Assembly: GCA_903851445.1 (NCBI GenBank)
Contig: CAINOH010000009.1
Location: 149,908-213,907 of the forward strand
Reading direction: 5' to 3'
Source: an uncultured Microcaldota archaeon
GTDB taxonomy: Archaea > Micrarchaeota > Micrarchaeia > Norongarragalinales > CAINOH01
DNA length: 64,000 nucleotides
The number at the start of each line of letters is the position of its first letter. The first letter of the stretch is position 1. Made by a program: the position numbers and the translations under genes. The notes beneath the pieces were generated by a model. The model had not been told where the DNA came from. It saw only the letters and a program-made list of their open reading frames with translations, and ran no database searches. Positions 23,316 to 46,950 of this stretch are shown here, piece after piece.

Positions 23316-24182
23316 TCAGCCGTGCACCGGGCACCCTTGCCGCCGCTCAACCGAAAACACGGCCTGCGTATTGCGGACTCCGTCGTAAAAAAGGTATTTG
23401 CCTACGAGCGTGTTGCCAAAAAGCCATTTCGCCTGCTCGACATTGCTTTGCCCGCCCTGTTCTTCTCCGACGACTTTGGGCTGCGGCTTTCCTCCCTTCC
23501 TTTCAAGGCTTGCCGCACAGTGCACCAGCTTTATCATCTCGTTTACCTGCAGGGCCGCTATGATGCTGTTTGTTGTGGAGAGCGCAGGGGTCTTGGGGTC
23601 GATGAAGTCCAGCGGGTCGCCGACGCAGGAGTATTTGCGCCACAGGAACTGGTAGTCCTGCTCGCTCATCGCGCACTCAAGGCACGCCGAGGGCGCTATC
23701 ACCACCTGCACTTTCCCGAAAAACCCCGTTGTGCCCCCGTCAATGAGCGGGACCTTACCGTAACAGTGCGAGTTCAGGTGCAGCCTGGCGCCGAGGTTGT
23801 CGAGGCAGGAGAACACGTAATCGAATTGCGAGTAGAAATTTTCAGGAAGCTCCTCAACATTTTTTAGTATCGGGGTAATCCTGATTTTCTTGTTTATAGA
23901 GCGTGCGCGGGTTGCGATGACGCGCGCCTTGAAAAGGCCGTTCGCCGCGTCCATCGGGCAGAAGAAGACGCAGCGGTTGAGGTTTGCCTTGACAATCCTG
24001 TCAAAGTCAACAAGGGTTATTCTGCCTACGCCGATTTGCGCAAGGCCCTTGACCACCTCGTTGCCAAGCGCGCCCGCACCCACCACCAGCACGTTGAGCT
24101 TGGATATCGCATCCTGGTCCCAGCCAGCTATGCGCTTCTGGCGGTCGAACTGGTCCGCATCTATACTTGGCTTTTCGAGCAT
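23316..24182 (-). CDS. E1-like ubiquitin-activating enzyme (ThiF/UBA family)
   Basis: LNVLVVGAGALGNEVVKGLAQIGVGRITLVDFDRIVKANLNRCVFF; PLIDGGTTGFFGKVQVV; CLEC ... C-terminal CPVH. Confidence 0.93.
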   Translation of the reverse strand: MLEKPSIDADQFDRQKRIAGWDQDAISKLNVLVVGAGALGNEVVKGLAQIGVGRITLVDFDRIVKANLNRCVFFCPMDAANGLFKARVIATRARSINKKIRITPILKNVEELPENFYSQFDYVFSCLDNLGARLHLNSHCYGKVPLIDGGTTGFFGKVQVVIAPSACLECAMSEQDYQFLWRKYSCVGDPLDFIDPKTPALSTTNSIIAALQVNEMIKLVHCAASLERKGGKPQPKVVGEEQGGQSNVEQAKWLFGNTLVGKYLFYDGVRNTQAVFSVERRQGCPVHG

Positions 24183-24248: not shown

Positions 24249-24581
24249 ATGCCATTGGAAGGGAGGGTCTATCATCGTACGCAACTGCTTCCGGATGAAC
24301 ACGCATTATTCAGAAGGCAGTCGGACAAGACGCAGCTTAAGCATGAAGTAAAAACGGCGCTTAGGAAGATTAAAATGCCTGCAAGCAGCGTGTCTTTTAG
24401 AAAGCCTAGAGGAACGGACGCCCACTTTATGAAAGTCTACTTGAAAGACGTGCCTGCGCGAATAGAGCAATTGCCGAAAGCAGAAGAGGCCATACGAAAA
24501 GTCCTGCGAGACGGCGGCATTAACCACCTACTCGGCACTTGGACGACAATATCAAGGCCAAAGCAATTATCGCGCAAGTAG
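24249..24581 (+). CDS. Hypothetical protein inserted in opposite orientation within the Ub cluster
   Basis: ORF 110 aa; no recognised family. Confidence 0.5.
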   Translation: MPLEGRVYHRTQLLPDEHALFRRQSDKTQLKHEVKTALRKIKMPASSVSFRKPRGTDAHFMKVYLKDVPARIEQLPKAEEAIRKVLRDGGINHLLGTWTTISRPKQLSRK

Positions 24582-24582
24582 C

Positions 24583-25518
24583 CTAATCAAACAGCTTCTT
24601 GATTGCGCGCACCGCGTCCTCTGACGCTTTGTCCATCCGGATCTGGAGTTTTTTGCCGCAGCGCACGCACGAGTTCTGCGAGTTGACCAGGTGCTCGTAG
24701 CAGTCCTTGTGGTAGGCCGCGCCGCAGAAGCAGTAGCCGTACTTGGGGTTGTTCTCAAGGGCGTTGACTGACAGGCGGAACGGCGCCTGGCAAAGCTCGC
24801 ACGCGCCGGCCTGCGTGGTCTTCTCAATCATTTCCTTTACCGCGTCCCTCCCGCCAAGGGACTCGACCTGCTTTTCGAACGGAATTGCCTGACCGGTTGG
24901 CGATGCCGCGATTGCCGTCTGGATTCTTGCCGCCACGCCGTTGCCGTTCTTTGGCGAGCCCTTGCGCAGCATTTCAAACAGGTCGAGGTCTGCCTGTTTT
25001 GCTGGCTTGTGCCCGGGACCCGGGACGTAGAATAGCGAGCTGTCGTTCTCTGTGAGCTTTGGAGTGGGGGGGTTTTTTGGTTCTGAATAACTGTTCCCAG
25101 AAGAATCGGTTTTTTCTGCTGGCAACCCCGGGGTGACCGTCTTTGCTTTCTTCGCTTTCTTTTCCTCTGAAGCCTTCCTTTTTGCAAGCTCGTCATACCC
25201 TGATATTCCCAGCCGGAATACGCTGGGATTCGCGCTGTCGCGGCACAGAAACCCCTTGGAGCAAAGGAAGTCCGCGCGCTTTGCAAACTGCAGCGGGTCA
25301 ACCCCAGTAAGCAAAAGAAGCGAGTCCTGGGAGTTGTTTCCGGACTTGACCATCTCAAAAAGGTCGATGTCGAACAAGAGAAGCTTTTTCGGCGTTCTCG
25401 GCGGCTTGACTGCCGCTTGCCTTGCGGGCCTTGCTTTCGCTTGCTCGGGTTTTCTCATGCTCGGTTCGTTCGTGGGTGTTTCCATGACGCTTTGCCACCG
25501 TGCGCCAGCTTTCGACAA
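24583..25518 (-). CDS. RING-type zinc finger protein, candidate E3 ubiquitin ligase
   Basis: C-terminal CELCQAPFRLSVNALENNPKYGYCFCGAAYHKDCYEHLVNSQNSCVRCGKKL = C-x2-C-x18-C-x-C-x4-H-x2-C-x10-C-x2-C (C4HC3). Confidence 0.82.
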   Translation of the reverse strand: MSKAGARWQSVMETPTNEPSMRKPEQAKARPARQAAVKPPRTPKKLLLFDIDLFEMVKSGNNSQDSLLLLTGVDPLQFAKRADFLCSKGFLCRDSANPSVFRLGISGYDELAKRKASEEKKAKKAKTVTPGLPAEKTDSSGNSYSEPKNPPTPKLTENDSSLFYVPGPGHKPAKQADLDLFEMLRKGSPKNGNGVAARIQTAIAASPTGQAIPFEKQVESLGGRDAVKEMIEKTTQAGACELCQAPFRLSVNALENNPKYGYCFCGAAYHKDCYEHLVNSQNSCVRCGKKLQIRMDKASEDAVRAIKKLFD

Positions 25519-25564: not shown

Positions 25565-26029
25565 TCAGGGTATGGCCGCGAATGAAATTTCACGGTAGCG
25601 CGGCGATTGTGCGGGTTCCAGCCGGTAAACCCGCTTTTTTGCGCCGCCTGCGGAAAGCGGGTCTACCACCACCGCTATTGACTGCGGGTGGTCAAAATAA
25701 CGCTGTTGCGTCGCAATGTCGGTGTGTGAAAGGAAGCACCCAAGGCCCGGGTGCGAATGAAGCCAGCCTACGACCACTTGACGCGCGTTGACTGCCGTAA
25801 AGAGCTTGGATGAAAGCTCGCCAAACGATGCTTCGGAAAACCTGACGGACACCGATGACGCTTCGTTCGGCGCGGTCACATACCCCTCGACAAGGACCCA
25901 AGACCGGCCCCTGCTCTGGCAGAACCTGCCGACCAGGAGACCCATCGTCTCAACGCGAACGCTGGCACCGGACTTTGCGTGGGAGAGCGCGGAGTCGAGC
26001 GCGGACTTGCGGAAGTAAACGTCGTACAC
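25565..26029 (-). CDS. JAB/MPN (JAMM) metalloprotease, Rpn11/CSN5-like deubiquitinase
   Basis: VETMGLLVG; VVGWLHSHPGLGCFLSHTDIATQQ = JAMM motif H-x-H-x7-S-x2-D. Confidence 0.93.
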   Translation of the reverse strand: MYDVYFRKSALDSALSHAKSGASVRVETMGLLVGRFCQSRGRSWVLVEGYVTAPNEASSVSVRFSEASFGELSSKLFTAVNARQVVVGWLHSHPGLGCFLSHTDIATQQRYFDHPQSIAVVVDPLSAGGAKKRVYRLEPAQSPRYREISFAAIP

Positions 26030-26180: not shown

Positions 26181-29100
26181 CTATTGCTGCTCCTTTTCTT
26201 CTGCTGCCTCGGAGTCTTTCTTCTCGGGCTTTGGGACCGCTTCACCCAATATCTTCCCGCGGAGCTCCTCCATGAGATCCATCGCCTGCTTGTCCGCCTC
26301 TGTTTGCGCGCTGAATTCCGCATCACTTTGGGGTGCAAACTCCGATTCGCGGTATTGCTGCACCCTCTGGGCGGGGCGGGCGGCTGGCCGGAAGGAGGGC
26401 GTATGGCCCCCGAGCGGCTCTCGGCGGATTGATTGCTCGGCATGGGGTGCGTAATATTCCTGATGCCGCTGTTGCGGCGGCGAAACGTACTGCGTGGCCT
26501 GCCGCTGCACAACGGGTTGCGGTTGCCTGACGAATTGCGACTGCTGCCTTGGGAACTCGGCGGCGCGCGGGGGCGCTGCGGGCGCCTTGGTTTCCATTTC
26601 AGCAAGGGCTTTTTCCAGGTCTGAAAGGCCGGATTTGAGTGCATCCGCCTGTTGCTCTGCTGGGCCGGGTGATTCTGCAACTGCGCGTTCTGCGGTTGCC
26701 TGGACGGGCGCCTGCCTTGCGATCGCCGCACGCGGAGCGTTGGCGACACCCGACACATTGTTACGGCTGGCGTCAAGTTCCCTCGAAAGCGAGGCAATGT
26801 TCTCAAGCGCAACAAACAGGTTTGCAACCTTCTGCTCCAATAGCGCGCTCGATGCCTTGACTGACGCACGTTCCTGCTCCTGGCGGAGCTCCCCTGCGCC
26901 CATTGCGGAACGCAAGGATGCGACCGTCTTGTTGGTTTCGGATATCGAGGCGACCAGCTGCTCCGTGGAGGATGCTGACCGTGCGGCAATCTGTTCTATT
27001 GAAGATGACGAACGTGCGAGGCCCTCGACGGATGCTGAAAGTTTCGCATCGGCGTCCTGGCTTGCCTTGGCTGATGCTTCCTGGGCTTTGCGCAGCCCCG
27101 CAAGCTCCGCTGCAACGTCGGTTTTCGTGGCGGAAAGCAACTCCGAGATTGAGCGTGAGAAGGCGTCCTGCGTGTCCATACGCTCGGCCATTCCCGCGAT
27201 GTTTTTTTCGGAATCTGCCTTCTGCATAGCCAGCTGGGCTGTTGATGCCGCTGAACGGGACAGCGCTTCGATTGACGCTGCTGAACGCGCAAATCCGTCG
27301 GATACTGCGGCGGTAAGCCGCGAGTCCGTGTCTTGGAGGGTTCTTGCCAGTTCGTCTTGGGCTTTGCGCACGCACGCCAACTCGTTTGAAAGGTCTGCTT
27401 TCGTGGTGGAAAGCTGCTCTGAAATTGAATGTGACAATGAATCTGCCGCACCAGCACGTTCAGACAGCGCGTCCTGGGATTTGCGCAGCCCCGCAAGCTC
27501 CGCTGCAACGTCGGTTTTCGTGGTGAAAAGCTGTTCTGATATTGAGTGCGAGAATGCGTCCATCGCGCCAGCGCGTTCAGACAGGGCTGCAATGGCTTTT
27601 TCGGAATCGCTCTTCTGCGCCGCTAGGCCTGCACGCAGGTCATCTATCGAATGTGAGGCCTGGGACTCGCGCACCTCAAGGGTCGCTGTAAGGTCCGCTT
27701 GGCGTTTGTCAAGCGCGGCTATGGCCTCGGCCTGCTTCGAGTCAAGAGCTGAAAGTGCCTGGGTTTGCTGGGCCTCGAACGCCGCAAGCATCTGCGACTG
27801 GCTGGACTCGAAGGTTTTGACTGACGTGGATGTTTTTGACTCGAAATCGGAAATGATTTTCGACTGCTGTGCCTCGAACGCGGCTGTTGCTGAGGATTGT
27901 CTCTTTTCAAAATCGGCCAATGCCCAGCCCTGCTTTCTCTCGAACCCAACGGTTGCCTCGGTCTGCTTCTTTTCAAAATCAGTCAGCAGTCCGTCCTGTT
28001 TTTTCTCGAAACCGACAATCTTTGCCGCCTGCTCGGCCATCCTTGCGCCCTGCTTTGTGTCAATGGCGGAAAGCGCTTCCGCATGGCGCGACTCTGATGC
28101 CGCCACTGCAAGCCGGATCTTTTCCGGCACCGCGTCACGGAACTCGGTGAATTCGAGTGTCTGCTGGCCCGTTGCCTGTTGCGCCTTCAAAAGGCGCTCT
28201 GCTGTCTGCGAAAGCTTCGCGTCAACTGCCGCAAGGGCTTTTGCCTGTCGCTCCTCGGCAGCAGTAATAACACCTATTTTTTCAGGAAGCGTGGTCTTGA
28301 GGCCGGAAAGGTCGGCACCGAGGCGGTCGGACTGGGTCTGCAGCTGCGAGAACCGCTGCCCCACTATCGTAGAAACGTTGTTTTCGGTTTCCGCAAGCTT
28401 GGACGACAACAGTTCGGTCTGCACCTTGAGCTCGTTGAGAAGCGTCTTGGTTTCTTCCACCTGCGTCTGGGAGAACTGCTCGTCCGCAACTGCGGCAGCC
28501 TGCTTTTCCGAAATTACCGATGCAACTTCCTGCATAAGCTGTGATTGTGACGAGGATAGCGCGTCTACTTTTGCCGAGACGCCCTCTGCCTGCGTTTTCC
28601 ATTCGCCAAGCTCGGCATCTAACCCCTCAAGGCGTGCGAGCCTGGTCTCGAGCTGCCGGAGGCTGTTGGCGTTTTCTGGCGCGGTAAACTGCGTGTTTGG
28701 GTCATTGCCACCATCTCCGGCGTTTGACGCGGGGATGTGAAGGGAGAATATGCTCCGCTCAAGCGCGTCGACTCGCGAAAGAAGGTTGCCGGCCTGGCTG
28801 GGCGTTGTTGTTGCGCTTGCAAAAGTCACGCGGCCGTCAGCGGACGCAAAAACTTCGTTGGATGGGGAACCTGCAACTTGGAGCGCGTCCACCTGGGCCT
28901 TGAGCTTCGACACGCTCTTTGAAAGGTTGGAAAACAACACCGTGTTCTCGTGCTCTATTGAATTGATTTTGGCGCCTAGGGCGCCAAATCCCTTTTCCAC
29001 AACCGCTATGCGTGCAGCGTCCTGGCCGCCCGAGATGCCTTCCATCCTGTGCTTGAGTTCGGAAAACCCGGTTGTGACGTTTACAAAAAGGGCGGCGTTG

Positions 29101-30521
29101 TTGGCCTCGGAATCCCTGACCTTGCCCTCGACGCGCAAGATGATTTCTTCCATGCTGGCGATTTTTGCCGCCTGCTCCTGGAATGCCTCGGCCTTCTTTG
29201 CAAGGTCGGCCACTGTTGACGAAAGCGCGTTGGTCTCGTCTATAAGGCGCGTTTGCTCGGCACGGGTGGCGCCCGTGCTCTGCAGCGGCTCTCCGGGAAC
29301 GCGCGGGCCGCCCGCTTGCGACGCCTCGTACTGCATGCCGGTTATCATCAAACGTGTTTCTGCGACTGCGCGCGCGTTCTGCTCGACTTTCTGCGAAAGC
29401 TCGGCGGCAATCCTGCGGTAGTCCGCAATGCCGTGCTCGTGCTCGGCCTTGAGCGCGCTGATGTCGCGGAGCACCGCGTCGTGGGTGGAATTGATGGTGT
29501 CTGACGTGAGCTTGTATTCCGAGAGATTCTTTTGGATCTCTGAAAACACGGCTTGCATCTTGTTGGACTGCGCGGTAAGCAGCCGTTCAACCGCCTTTAC
29601 CTGCTCGTAGTTTGCGGAGACCTCGGCGCGGGTCTTTTCAAGTTCCTTTGAGTAGTCGCCCAAGACCGCCATGCCGGTGCCGGCGCGCAGCTCCGCAATT
29701 GCTTTTTCGTGGGCGTCTACTTTCGCCTCCACGCCAGTCGCGCCTTGCGGTCCGTAGGCAGCTGCACCGCCCGCGACCATGCTGTTTAGCCGGTCAACCG
29801 ATGTGGACACCTGCGATACTGTGTCGCGGAGCGAGTCGATGGAAAGTCGGAGCTGCTGGCGGTCCACGTCAGCCATCTTCGAGTATTTCTCGAATTGCGC
29901 ACGCGACATTATCTGCTCCGAAGGGTAGTCCGACTTCAGCGCTATCTTACGTTCAAGCTCCGCTATCTTGTTGTGCGCCGCGTCGGTCTTGATGAAGTAG
30001 TCCTTGTCCCGGTCCGCCCATGCTTTTAGCTGCTCGAGCGCGACTTCCATCGGCCGCAGGCGTGAGGACTGCTCGGTGTACTCGGCCTCGAGCTTGCGCA
30101 CCGCGCTTGAAATACCGGACTCTGCTGGCTTGTCCGCTGAGCCCTGCAGACCTGTTTGTTTGATTGTTGAAAGTTGTGCGCGCAGGTCGGAAATTTCAGA
30201 CCCCAGCTTGTCGGGCTGGACGCGGTCTATTATGGTGATAATCTGCTCTGCCTTTGACTGCGCGGCCTGGATGTTGTGTTCAAGAGCCGAGACGCGGTCC
30301 GAAAGCTGGGAGAGTCCCTGGCCGAACGAAGCGAGCGCGCCTTCGGTCTTTTGCCTAAAATCAGGCGGACCGCCTGCTGCTGCATTGGTGTTTTGCTGGC
30401 TTGTTGCTGTGAAAGCGGCAAACGGGGCTTGGCCTGCGGGGCTTGTGCTGGGCGCTTGAGGCGCGTTTTCCTTTTGAGCTGCGTTTTTTTTCAGAAAATC
30501 GTCCAAATCCAATACTGGCAT
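26181..30521 (-). CDS. Giant (1446 aa) hendecad-repeat coiled-coil protein with P/Q-rich C-terminus
   Basis: Repeats of type xFExKQxxxxx (DFEKKQTEATV/GFERKQGWALA/DFEKRQSSATA/AFEAQQSKIIS...) over most of its length. Confidence 0.85.
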   Translation of the reverse strand: MPVLDLDDFLKKNAAQKENAPQAPSTSPAGQAPFAAFTATSQQNTNAAAGGPPDFRQKTEGALASFGQGLSQLSDRVSALEHNIQAAQSKAEQIITIIDRVQPDKLGSEISDLRAQLSTIKQTGLQGSADKPAESGISSAVRKLEAEYTEQSSRLRPMEVALEQLKAWADRDKDYFIKTDAAHNKIAELERKIALKSDYPSEQIMSRAQFEKYSKMADVDRQQLRLSIDSLRDTVSQVSTSVDRLNSMVAGGAAAYGPQGATGVEAKVDAHEKAIAELRAGTGMAVLGDYSKELEKTRAEVSANYEQVKAVERLLTAQSNKMQAVFSEIQKNLSEYKLTSDTINSTHDAVLRDISALKAEHEHGIADYRRIAAELSQKVEQNARAVAETRLMITGMQYEASQAGGPRVPGEPLQSTGATRAEQTRLIDETNALSSTVADLAKKAEAFQEQAAKIASMEEIILRVEGKVRDSEANNAALFVNVTTGFSELKHRMEGISGGQDAARIAVVEKGFGALGAKINSIEHENTVLFSNLSKSVSKLKAQVDALQVAGSPSNEVFASADGRVTFASATTTPSQAGNLLSRVDALERSIFSLHIPASNAGDGGNDPNTQFTAPENANSLRQLETRLARLEGLDAELGEWKTQAEGVSAKVDALSSSQSQLMQEVASVISEKQAAAVADEQFSQTQVEETKTLLNELKVQTELLSSKLAETENNVSTIVGQRFSQLQTQSDRLGADLSGLKTTLPEKIGVITAAEERQAKALAAVDAKLSQTAERLLKAQQATGQQTLEFTEFRDAVPEKIRLAVAASESRHAEALSAIDTKQGARMAEQAAKIVGFEKKQDGLLTDFEKKQTEATVGFERKQGWALADFEKRQSSATAAFEAQQSKIISDFESKTSTSVKTFESSQSQMLAAFEAQQTQALSALDSKQAEAIAALDKRQADLTATLEVRESQASHSIDDLRAGLAAQKSDSEKAIAALSERAGAMDAFSHSISEQLFTTKTDVAAELAGLRKSQDALSERAGAADSLSHSISEQLSTTKADLSNELACVRKAQDELARTLQDTDSRLTAAVSDGFARSAASIEALSRSAASTAQLAMQKADSEKNIAGMAERMDTQDAFSRSISELLSATKTDVAAELAGLRKAQEASAKASQDADAKLSASVEGLARSSSSIEQIAARSASSTEQLVASISETNKTVASLRSAMGAGELRQEQERASVKASSALLEQKVANLFVALENIASLSRELDASRNNVSGVANAPRAAIARQAPVQATAERAVAESPGPAEQQADALKSGLSDLEKALAEMETKAPAAPPRAAEFPRQQSQFVRQPQPVVQRQATQYVSPPQQRHQEYYAPHAEQSIRREPLGGHTPSFRPAARPAQRVQQYRESEFAPQSDAEFSAQTEADKQAMDLMEELRGKILGEAVPKPEKKDSEAAEEKEQQ

Positions 30522-30665: not shown

Positions 30666-31106
30666 TTATTTCCCGGTTATTTTGCGGGAAATTACGTCAG
30701 CAAGGCCTTTGATTGCGTAAAGGAGGCCGGGAACGCTCTTTGGCTCGGTTTTCGGGGCTTGCTGGCCGGCCTGTGACTTTTCGTTCTGGGTGTTGTCTGG
30801 TGACGCGACGGTCGAGGCGAATGCTTGGGTGACGTCATTTGCCATCTTTTGCTCTTCTGCATCCTTTTCCGCCTGCGACAGGGTCTGCTCGGTCCAGTCC
30901 GCCTCTGACGTGGGATCCGCGCTGACAGTGTGTCTGGCTGCGCCGGCCGGGTTGGGTGGCTGTGGCTGCTTGTTTGTTGGGATTTCCGGTTGCGGCGTTG
31001 CCTGTATTTGTGTGAGCACCCGCGGCTTTGAAAGCTTTGGCTGCTCGGGCTCGGAAACCGAGAGTATCTTGGGCCGCTTTGGGTCTGCGGGCGTTGGTTG
31101 ATCCAT
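30666..31106 (-). CDS. Hypothetical low-complexity (P/Q/T-rich) protein
   Basis: MDQPTPADPKRPKILSVSEPEQPKL...; divergent from the Ub-like gene. Confidence 0.55.
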   Translation of the reverse strand: MDQPTPADPKRPKILSVSEPEQPKLSKPRVLTQIQATPQPEIPTNKQPQPPNPAGAARHTVSADPTSEADWTEQTLSQAEKDAEEQKMANDVTQAFASTVASPDNTQNEKSQAGQQAPKTEPKSVPGLLYAIKGLADVISRKITGK

Positions 31107-31213
31107 GTTGAAATCGGTGCCAAATGCTTAGAGAAAAGAGGCTGGCGCAAAAATAAATATCGGCATACTGGACTGCGGCGCGCTTTTTAAGTTTGAGGCT
31201 GAAAAGTAGTGTT

Positions 31214-31456
31214 ATGGCCGAATACAACATCACTGTTGTCCACACCACGAGCGGAAAGGAGACGCTTCTCGCTGTTGAGGAGGCGTTCTCGGTCGCGTCC
31301 GTGCTCGAGGTGCTTGCTGAGAGTCTTCACCTTAAGGACCGCTTTGTGCTTGCGACCAAGGAAAACAAGATACTCGACCCGCAACTTACCCTAAAGGATG
31401 CGGGTGTTGCTGCGGGTGCTGTGCTTCTTCTGATGCCAGACCCAACTGGCGGCTGA
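31214..31456 (+). CDS. Ubiquitin-like beta-grasp protein with terminal Gly-Gly (80 aa)
   Basis: MAEYNITVVHTTSGKETLLAVEEAFSVASVLEVLAESLHLKDRFVLATKENKILDPQLTLKDAGVAAGAVLLLMPDPTGG*; Ub-like length and TLKDAGVxxG..L region; stop directly after GG; TATA-like CTTTTTAAGTTT upstream. Confidence 0.88.
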   Translation: MAEYNITVVHTTSGKETLLAVEEAFSVASVLEVLAESLHLKDRFVLATKENKILDPQLTLKDAGVAAGAVLLLMPDPTGG

Positions 31457-42597: not shown

Positions 42598-43068
42598 ATG
42601 CCCCAGCTTCCTACTGAGATTTGGAGACGCAGGATAGAAAGCGAGTACAATCAGCTGCGCAGCCGGGGCTTTGACTTCGACGTGAACCCGGACCACACGG
42701 AATACACTTTCCGCATACTTGGCGATGCGTTGTGCGTGAGGGACGGTGCGCTTGTGCCCGTCAACAGGCACGTGGTATTCCTGCGGCTTGCGCGCGAATA
42801 CCCTTACGCCGGCGGGTTTGAGCTTGTCTGGAAGACGCCGATTTTTCACCCAAACATCGACGAGAAGGGGAAGGTGTGCATCCGGCTTGTGAACCTCTGG
42901 GCTGCGGGCCAGACCGTGGCAAGCATCGTCGATGCGCTTGTGCAGCTTTTGGAAAACCCGAATCCCGACTCGCCGCTAAACTACGAGGCGGCCCAATATT
43001 ACCTTGAGAACCCCAAGCCAAAGGCAACAGCGGGCTTCCGGCTTTCGCGGCCAAAGATAGTTGGCTGA
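42598..43068 (+). CDS. E2 ubiquitin-conjugating enzyme (UBC fold)
   Basis: TPIFHPNIDEKGKVCIRLVNLWAAGQTVASIVDALVQLLENPNPDSPLNYEAAQYYLEN: HPN motif, catalytic Cys, conserved W and PNPDSPLN. Confidence 0.95.
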   Translation: MPQLPTEIWRRRIESEYNQLRSRGFDFDVNPDHTEYTFRILGDALCVRDGALVPVNRHVVFLRLAREYPYAGGFELVWKTPIFHPNIDEKGKVCIRLVNLWAAGQTVASIVDALVQLLENPNPDSPLNYEAAQYYLENPKPKATAGFRLSRPKIVG

Positions 43069-45810: not shown

Positions 45811-46950
45811 TTGTTTATGAAATCTTATCGTTTCAGGGTGTATGCGAACAAGCAGCAGGATGCGGTGATGCGCCAGCACTTGTGGGCTTCGAAGAACTTG
45901 TGGAACAGCGGTTTGACACTGGCAAAGCAGATGTACGACGATTTTGGTAAGTTCCCAACCCGAAAGACACTTCAAGAGATAAGCAAGGATTCAGGATTGT
46001 ATTCGCAAGTGGCGCAGGGTGTTTTCGTTCGTCTTTCTCTCGCGTTAAAAGCTAATACTAGACGCAAGAAGGCGGGGTTGAAAGGCGGTTTTCCGCGTTT
46101 CAAATCTTTCGATAGGATGAAGAGCTTGCATTATCCGCAGTCTGGTTTCGAGTTGTTACCGAACAAAAAATTGCAAGTCACTCCTTTCGGCAAGTTGAAC
46201 ATCAAACAACACCGCCCAATTGAAGGTAAAATCAAGGCGTTGACGCTGAAGCGGGAAGCTTCTGGCAAGTGGTTCGCCATTTTCACAATAGAACAGGACG
46301 AGATAGTGCCGTTGGTGAACAACGGTGGGCGAGTGGGCATCGACTTGGGTTTGACTACGCTCGCCACGCTTTCAAACGGGTTAAAAATAAAGAATCCACG
46401 TCATTTTGATGGGCATCGGGAGAAGTTGGCGAAGTTGCAGAGACGTTTGTCAAGGGCGTTGAAGGGTGGCAAGAACAGGCGCAAAGCCAAGTTGAAAGTT
46501 GCATTGGCACACGAGAAGATTGCCAATGTCCGCAGGGACTTCTTGCACAAGGCCACCGCCAACTTAGTGAATTCATATTCCTTTATCGCGTTGGAAGAGC
46601 TTTCCAGCCAGAGGATGGCGGAACAAAATTTCGGCAAGCAAATCAATGATGCGGGTTGGGAAACGTTCGCGGGCATGATTGCATACAAAGCGGTGGAAGC
46701 TGGTTGCAAAGTAGTGTTCGTGAACCCGAAGAACACTACACAAGAGTGCAGCGGTTGTCACGAGTTAGTCAAGAAAGATTTGACCGTGCGAGTACATGAT
46801 TGCTCGCACTGCGGCCTAGTGCTGGACCGTGATGTGAATGCTGCAATAAACATACTCGTCAGAGCTACCGTCGGAACGACGGAAAGTAACGCCTGTGAAG
46901 ATGGAGCGATAGTTCCGTCTGTGAAGCAGGAAGCCACGACTTGTCAGTAG
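45811..46950 (+). mobile_element. tnpB: Solo IS605-family TnpB (RNA-guided nuclease-like), RuvC residues intact
   Basis: GIDLGLTTLATLS (RuvC-I), FIALEELS (RuvC-II), CSGC..CSHC zinc finger, DRDVNAAINI (RuvC-III); no TnpA ORF nearby. Confidence 0.95.

Follow-up and report, generated by a model that had tools for sequence, protein, structure and literature searches.

The 64,000-nucleotide stretch of micrarchaeal DNA analysed here, which we call the window, encodes an 80-residue ubiquitin-like protein (Ubl) that very probably acts as the tag in a complete ubiquitin-like conjugation cascade conserved within one order of Micrarchaeota, made with its Gly-Gly already exposed and taken off again by a JAMM isopeptidase. 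Besides Ubl, the cassette comprises a compact E1, a UBC-type E2, a winged-helix and RING-like E3 candidate, an Rpn11-like JAMM protein, and a disordered partner that we call X (Table 1). Outside eukaryotes, complete ubiquitin cascades are known chiefly from Aigarchaeota and Asgard archaea; such a gene set is now seen in almost all genomes of an order of micrarchaea of roughly 1 Mb, the window genome itself being a 1.09-Mb assembly that is 81% complete. A complete tagging kit of this kind in a micrarchaeon is apparently unreported: our search of the open literature yielded no publication describing a ubiquitin cascade in Micrarchaeota, and prior notice is possible in subscription papers and preprints, which lay outside its scope. 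We suggest that the micrarchaeal set would function as a novel version of the ubiquitin cascade of archaea.

Table 1. Features of the ubiquitin-like cassette and its surroundings in the window.
Feature	Position	Strand	Description	Basis
E1	23316..24182	-	Compact, ThiF fold, GAGALG, NLNR, CLEC...CPVH zinc ligands; candidate catalytic Cys186 (codon 23625-23627) in YSCVG	
E3 candidate	24583..25518	-	N-terminal winged helix, disordered linker, C-terminal RING-like CELC...CFCGAAYHKDC...CVRC; TTG start	
JAMM/MPN+ isopeptidase	25565..26029	-	HSHPGLGCFLSHTD; nearest solved relatives Rpn11	Motif, PDB match
Coiled-coil protein	26181..30521	-	1446 aa, between JAMM and X	ORF, cluster comparison
X	30666..31106	-	146-aa disordered protein, divergent from Ubl; position conserved in relatives	
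Motif in X	31014..31028	-	KPRVL	
Motif in X	31062..31076	-	RPKIL	
AT-rich stretch	31149-31160	+	AAAAATAAATAT, upstream of Ubl	Sequence
TATA-like stretch	31183..31191	+	CTTTTTAAG, -31 to -23 from ATG, weak	Sequence
Ubl	31214..31456	+	80 aa, ends -DPTGG, then stop	Translation, homologs, model
Gly79-Gly80 codons	31448..31453	+	TGA immediately 3'	Sequence
E2	42598..43068	+	UBC fold, HPNI motif, catalytic Cys codon 42877-42879; moved from ancestral site directly after Ubl	Sequence, matches
C-terminal E2 motif	43048..43065	+	RPKIVG	P[KR][IV][IV] in 26/26 orthologs

The ubiquitin-like gene and its fold

The earlier note had described an 80-residue ubiquitin-like protein ending in -DPTGG, and the translation bears this out, giving MAEYNITVVHTTSGKETLLAVEEAFSVASVLEVLAESLHLKDRFVLATKENKILDPQLTLKDAGVAAGAVLLLMPDPTGG up to the stop, of which DAGVAAGAVLLLMPDPTGG would remain after cleavage at Lys61. 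Its start codon is a conserved ATG, and an in-frame TTG lies further upstream, at 31193. Among 60 related genomes searched, homologs at 48-75% identity turned up in 26 of the 29 belonging to the same order and in none of the 31 others of the class. When a profile was run against 301 genomes of the phylum, the protein was once more confined to these 26, with no Ubl in any of the 272 Micrarchaeota outside the order. The named relatives are Ca. Micrarchaeota MAGs, and a cyanobacterium, Microcoleus, gave one more match. Over 153 pairs, the mean pN of 0.21 lies well under the mean pS of 0.74, and the protein is therefore under purifying selection; likewise, the third positions of the DPTGG codons vary, with the peptide itself almost invariant. 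At the level of sequence, this confirms that the reading frame is a real conserved gene and not a chance one.

The beta-grasp fold that the earlier note had proposed, naming structure prediction as its check, is also predicted with confidence. An AlphaFold2 model built from five sequences reached a pLDDT of 87.1 with a strand-strand-helix-strand-strand topology, and Foldseek placed ubiquitin, ISG15, and SUMO at the top of its matches (TM about 0.8-0.85, and about 0.85 for ubiquitin), the best PDB fold matches being Cdc34-ubiquitin and ISG15.

Conservation of the cassette and its predicted enzymes

The cassette genes accompany Ubl throughout the order: among the 29 genomes, Ubl was found in 26, E2 in 26, JAMM in 27, the RING-like gene in 26, and the cassette E1 in 25. 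Two genomes (G004 and G022) have none of these five genes, and another one (G024) has JAMM, E1, and RING only, without Ubl and E2, its JAMM lying 533 bases from the contig start. Ubl, E1, E2, RING-like protein, and JAMM thus occur together as in the Caldiarchaeum-type operon, the RING assignment being weaker than the rest.

In the mechanism that we propose, translation would yield a Ubl whose conjugating Gly-Gly is free from the outset. Gly80 would be adenylated by the compact E1, which would then bind Ubl in thioester linkage through the Cys of YSCVG. The E2, of the UBC type, would next accept Ubl on its own Cys, and the winged-helix/RING-like protein would guide Ubl to target lysines, from which the Rpn11-like JAMM would remove it again. 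The modified targets might then be handed over to the genome-encoded 20S proteasome, whose subunits are encoded in all 30 genomes.

The residues that such a relay would need are conserved. In the E1 family, the NxNR motif, the CxxC motifs, and the aligned Cys are each present in 25 of 25 sequences, the adenylation residues are kept, and the candidate catalytic Cys sits in YSC[VT]G. Its best PDB match is UBA1, and the chain is about 240-290 residues long and ends at the CPVH motif, with neither a UFD or Ubl domain nor the large Cys domain of ubiquitin E1s. Since the UFD and the large Cys domain are missing, the step from E1 to E2 is one that we infer. The HPN motif and the Cys of E2 are conserved in 26 of 26 sequences, with UBC enzymes as the best PDB relatives, and all 27 JAMM proteins of the order carry H-x-H-x7-S-x2-D, with Rpn11 as the best PDB match (E 4e-16).

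The assignment of the E3 candidate, made by its ligand pattern, is the weakest of the set. A C-x2-C...C-x-C-x4-H-x2-C...C-x2-C module closes the protein in 24 of 26 sequences, one exception being cut by the contig end, and the RING part gave a weak Pfam match (0.03) and a low-confidence model too poor for a fold search. The winged helix (residues 36-118) was modelled at a pLDDT of about 90 and has Lrp/AsnC-like matches; the true start of the protein probably lies further in than the TTG.

Naked and tailed C-termini

As the earlier note had stated, the stop follows the GG directly in the window Ubl. The contrast that it drew with Caldiarchaeum subterraneum holds as well, given that the ubiquitin of this archaeon (CsUb) is an 87-residue precursor with a 9-residue tail removed by Rpn11 (PMC5654768, PMC6043591). 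A naked GG is not new in itself; in eukaryotes, ATG12, FAT10, and URM1 are translated already mature (PMC11354881).

The earlier note had counted homologs lacking the GG terminus as evidence against its reading. We found that the GG was never lost, being kept in 26 of 26 orthologs, yet it is terminal in 19 of them and followed by 1-18 further residues in the other seven. These tails are YEKGLAQSSKSTRGKYSS in G018, YQRSPRTPNAANGC (14 residues) in G020, NFSNIARE in G002, LN in G015, SA in G019, N in G028, and F in G017, mutually unrelated in sequence and spread over four families (f2, f3, f4, and f6), and even within a single genus G005 is naked while G020 carries its tail of 14 residues. On a tree of the concatenated E1, E2, JAMM, and RING proteins, at least six changes between naked and tailed ends are needed, so the naked end is common but not fixed, and tails come and go. 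In four of the seven tailed genes the first tail codon (TAT, TAC, TTA, or TCA) is one base away from a stop, as expected if a stop had been lost.

The consequences for the JAMM protein are as follows. In C. subterraneum, the tailed ubiquitin could not be activated until Rpn11 had removed its 9 residues, and a ubiquitin stopped after the GG was activated without Rpn11; in vitro reconstitution of the homologous set of this archaeon has been achieved (PMC5654768). By analogy, JAMM should mature Ubl in a tailed micrarchaeon and need only deconjugate in the window species. In the window organism no maturation cut would be needed, and the JAMM would act on conjugates only, a role with which its presence in all 19 naked-GG genomes fits; in the seven tailed sister species (of 26), the same JAMM probably trims the precursor too. 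The earlier claim that the JAMM protein solely deconjugates is therefore tenable for the window species, which has no tail, but it cannot hold for the family, seven of whose 26 orthologs are tailed: the first reading was right for the window genome and too general for its relatives, and is thus partly supported. Probably, the family combines maturation in some species with deconjugation only in others, including that of the window, where the sole role is deduced from the missing tail and the enzyme could also trim other precursors.

The same scatter of tails over four families, their differences within a genus and lack of a common sequence, the six or more changes, and the proximity of first tail codons to stops also agree with a reading that we neither favor nor disfavor, namely that the JAMM would have the dual role of maturation and deconjugation order-wide, with the naked window Ubl as one end of a tail polymorphism drifting by stop loss and gain, and with a tail length devoid of function. 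Against it, 19 of the 26 ends are naked, which makes the tail dispensable, and the naked species retain their JAMM without any need of maturation. This alternative refines our main explanation rather than excluding it, and the confidence placed in one is not to be added to that placed in the other. In either case, the mixture of naked and tailed ends within an order, and even within a genus, amounts to a natural experiment that parts maturation from deconjugation.

A short motif common to E2 and the disordered protein X

The E2 chain ends, behind a variable linker, in P[KR][IV][IV] plus 0-5 residues in all 26 genomes, where shuffled sequences would be expected to give about 0.3 matches over the whole set. 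The motif recurs in X, a common form for both proteins being P[KR][IV][ILV]: of 21 X sequences, 16 contain one or two copies of [KRQ]P[KR][VIL][VIL], mostly close to the N-terminus (24 matches vs. 0.4 in shuffles; the X of a few genomes could not be cleanly extracted), and given that the pattern was picked after viewing E2 and X, the shuffles gauge its strength rather than serving as an independent test. A motif of the P[KR][IV][IV] type was absent from Ubl, JAMM, and RING, and in E1 there is a single linker match, in the window genome only. The X protein itself matched no family; in relatives its length ranges from 82 to 440 residues, and its C-terminus is often basic and amphipathic-looking.

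The simplest reading of this common motif would be docking on a common partner. Going further, we tentatively consider it possible, though rather doubtful, that this DPANN order possesses its own independent ubiquitin system, with an E1 that lost or never had the E2-docking UFD, and in which the P[KR][IV][IV] end of E2 would dock on a partner instead, and X, repeating the motif, would compete for or recruit to the same site as an adaptor, a regulator, or the main substrate. The simple E1, together with the motif of E2 and X, makes the minimal needs of a ubiquitin relay testable in vitro.

Sulfur carriage and secretion as alternative roles

A naked GG is typical of sulfur carriers, and the E1 has the size of ThiF and obtains scores with ThiF models, both of which would suit a ThiS/MoaD/Urm1-like Ubl serving tRNA thiolation or a cofactor instead of being conjugated as a tag. 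We hold this to be very unlikely because E2 and RING-like genes accompany Ubl order-wide, and no role of E2 and RING in sulfur transfer is known; moreover, the E1 matched no rhodanese domain, and most relatives (20 of 30) have a separate ThiS-family protein. The nearest Pfam families by sequence, all of them weak, are YukD, Rad60-SLD, and ubiquitin. The window Ubl had no match to the ThiS family, which two of 16 orthologs matched (best 0.055), and none at E<=1 to the ubiquitin family PF00240, which 14 of 16 orthologs matched at E<=0.1 (best 0.001); a whole-genome PF00240 search without any match carries no weight, since its controls were silent too.

Least probable of all, and indeed barely credible, is a role for Ubl as an unconjugated secretion-system partner of the YukD/EsaB type, to which its best single-protein Pfam match would point (YukD, E 1.4e-5, 26.2 bits, just under the cut-off of 27), given that the conserved C-terminal GG and the E1, E2, RING, and JAMM neighbours indicate conjugation and that none of the window ORFs read was recognized as a type VII secretion gene.

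Relation to known systems

The conjugation cascade that we favor shares with the operons of C. subterraneum and Asgard archaea the same five functions (ubiquitin, E1, E2, small RING protein, and Rpn11), the canonical E2 motifs, and an Rpn11-like JAMM gene transcribed opposite to the ubiquitin genes. It differs from them by the winged helix and C4HC3-like RING of its E3 candidate and by the extra partner X. The Cys domain and the C-terminal UBL domain of the C. subterraneum E1 (PMC5654768) are both missing from the window E1. CsUb was not among the PDB matches of the window Ubl up to E 1.

In cyanobacteria, Microcoleus L031 (8387-13122) has a compact E1-Ubl-E2-JAMM operon followed by a VirD4-like gene, with a Ubl ending in LLLMPDMGGA, and on the Crinalium plasmid NC_019754 the same set, again trailed by a VirD4-like gene, includes two Ubls, of which one ends in EGGY and the other lacks GG; no RING gene was seen adjoining either operon. 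Compared with the cyanobacterial proteins, the window Ubl is 52% identical over its last 31 residues, the C-terminal half being its best-conserved part, the E1 38% (to that of Microcoleus), and the JAMM 34%. The proteins of the micrarchaeal cassette resemble partly eukaryotic (E2 and JAMM) and partly bacterial (E1 and Ubl) relatives.

The SAMP/Urm1 systems are alike in having an E1-dependent archaeal Ubl with JAMM reversal, and URM1 is also made tailless, but SAMPs are conjugated without E2 or E3 (PMC11354881), in contrast with the E2 and RING that accompany the micrarchaeal Ubl order-wide. The bacterial antiphage Ubl systems (Bil, Bub, and CBASS Cap2/Cap3) have similar E1, E2, and JAB parts, and the bacterial Ubl-deubiquitinase entry 8tyx of the PDB matches the window Ubl fold; however, PADLOC and NCBIfam scores of the micrarchaeal set are weak, and with 26 of the order's 29 genomes carrying the Ubl its distribution is not sporadic, so we rejected an antiphage-defence system.

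Arrangement of the genes in the window

In relatives, the E1 gene is followed by the RING-like, JAMM, and X genes on the opposite strand and then by Ubl and E2, diverging from X on the strand of E1, with the start of E2 usually no more than tens of bases away from the Ubl stop. In the window genome, the segment 23316-26029 (-) contains the genes of E1, the RING-like protein, and JAMM; E1 is flipped with respect to the other cassette genes, and E2 is displaced by 11 kb. Ubl had been described as divergent from the rest of the cluster, which is correct for X, JAMM, RING, and E1, all on the minus strand, but not for E2, which is on the plus strand and ancestrally the next gene after Ubl. A putative TATA-like element 5' of Ubl is plausible, being seen only as AT-rich stretches whose spacing differs among relatives.

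The gene of the coiled-coil protein is probably a lineage-specific insertion outside the core system; we rejected it as a core part because it had no counterpart in the clusters of 20 relatives. A 110-residue ORF between the E1 and RING genes (24249-24581) matches no family. Many genomes of the order also encode a distinct ThiS/SAMP-like Ubl at a distance of 3-5 kb from a gene for a proteasome subunit (for example, at G011:C43:3777-8963); the window's genome yielded none. Finally, a TnpB-like transposon protein, recognized by eye from its translation, is encoded at 45811-46950 (+), 2.7 kb from the displaced E2, and might be related to the rearrangement of this gene.
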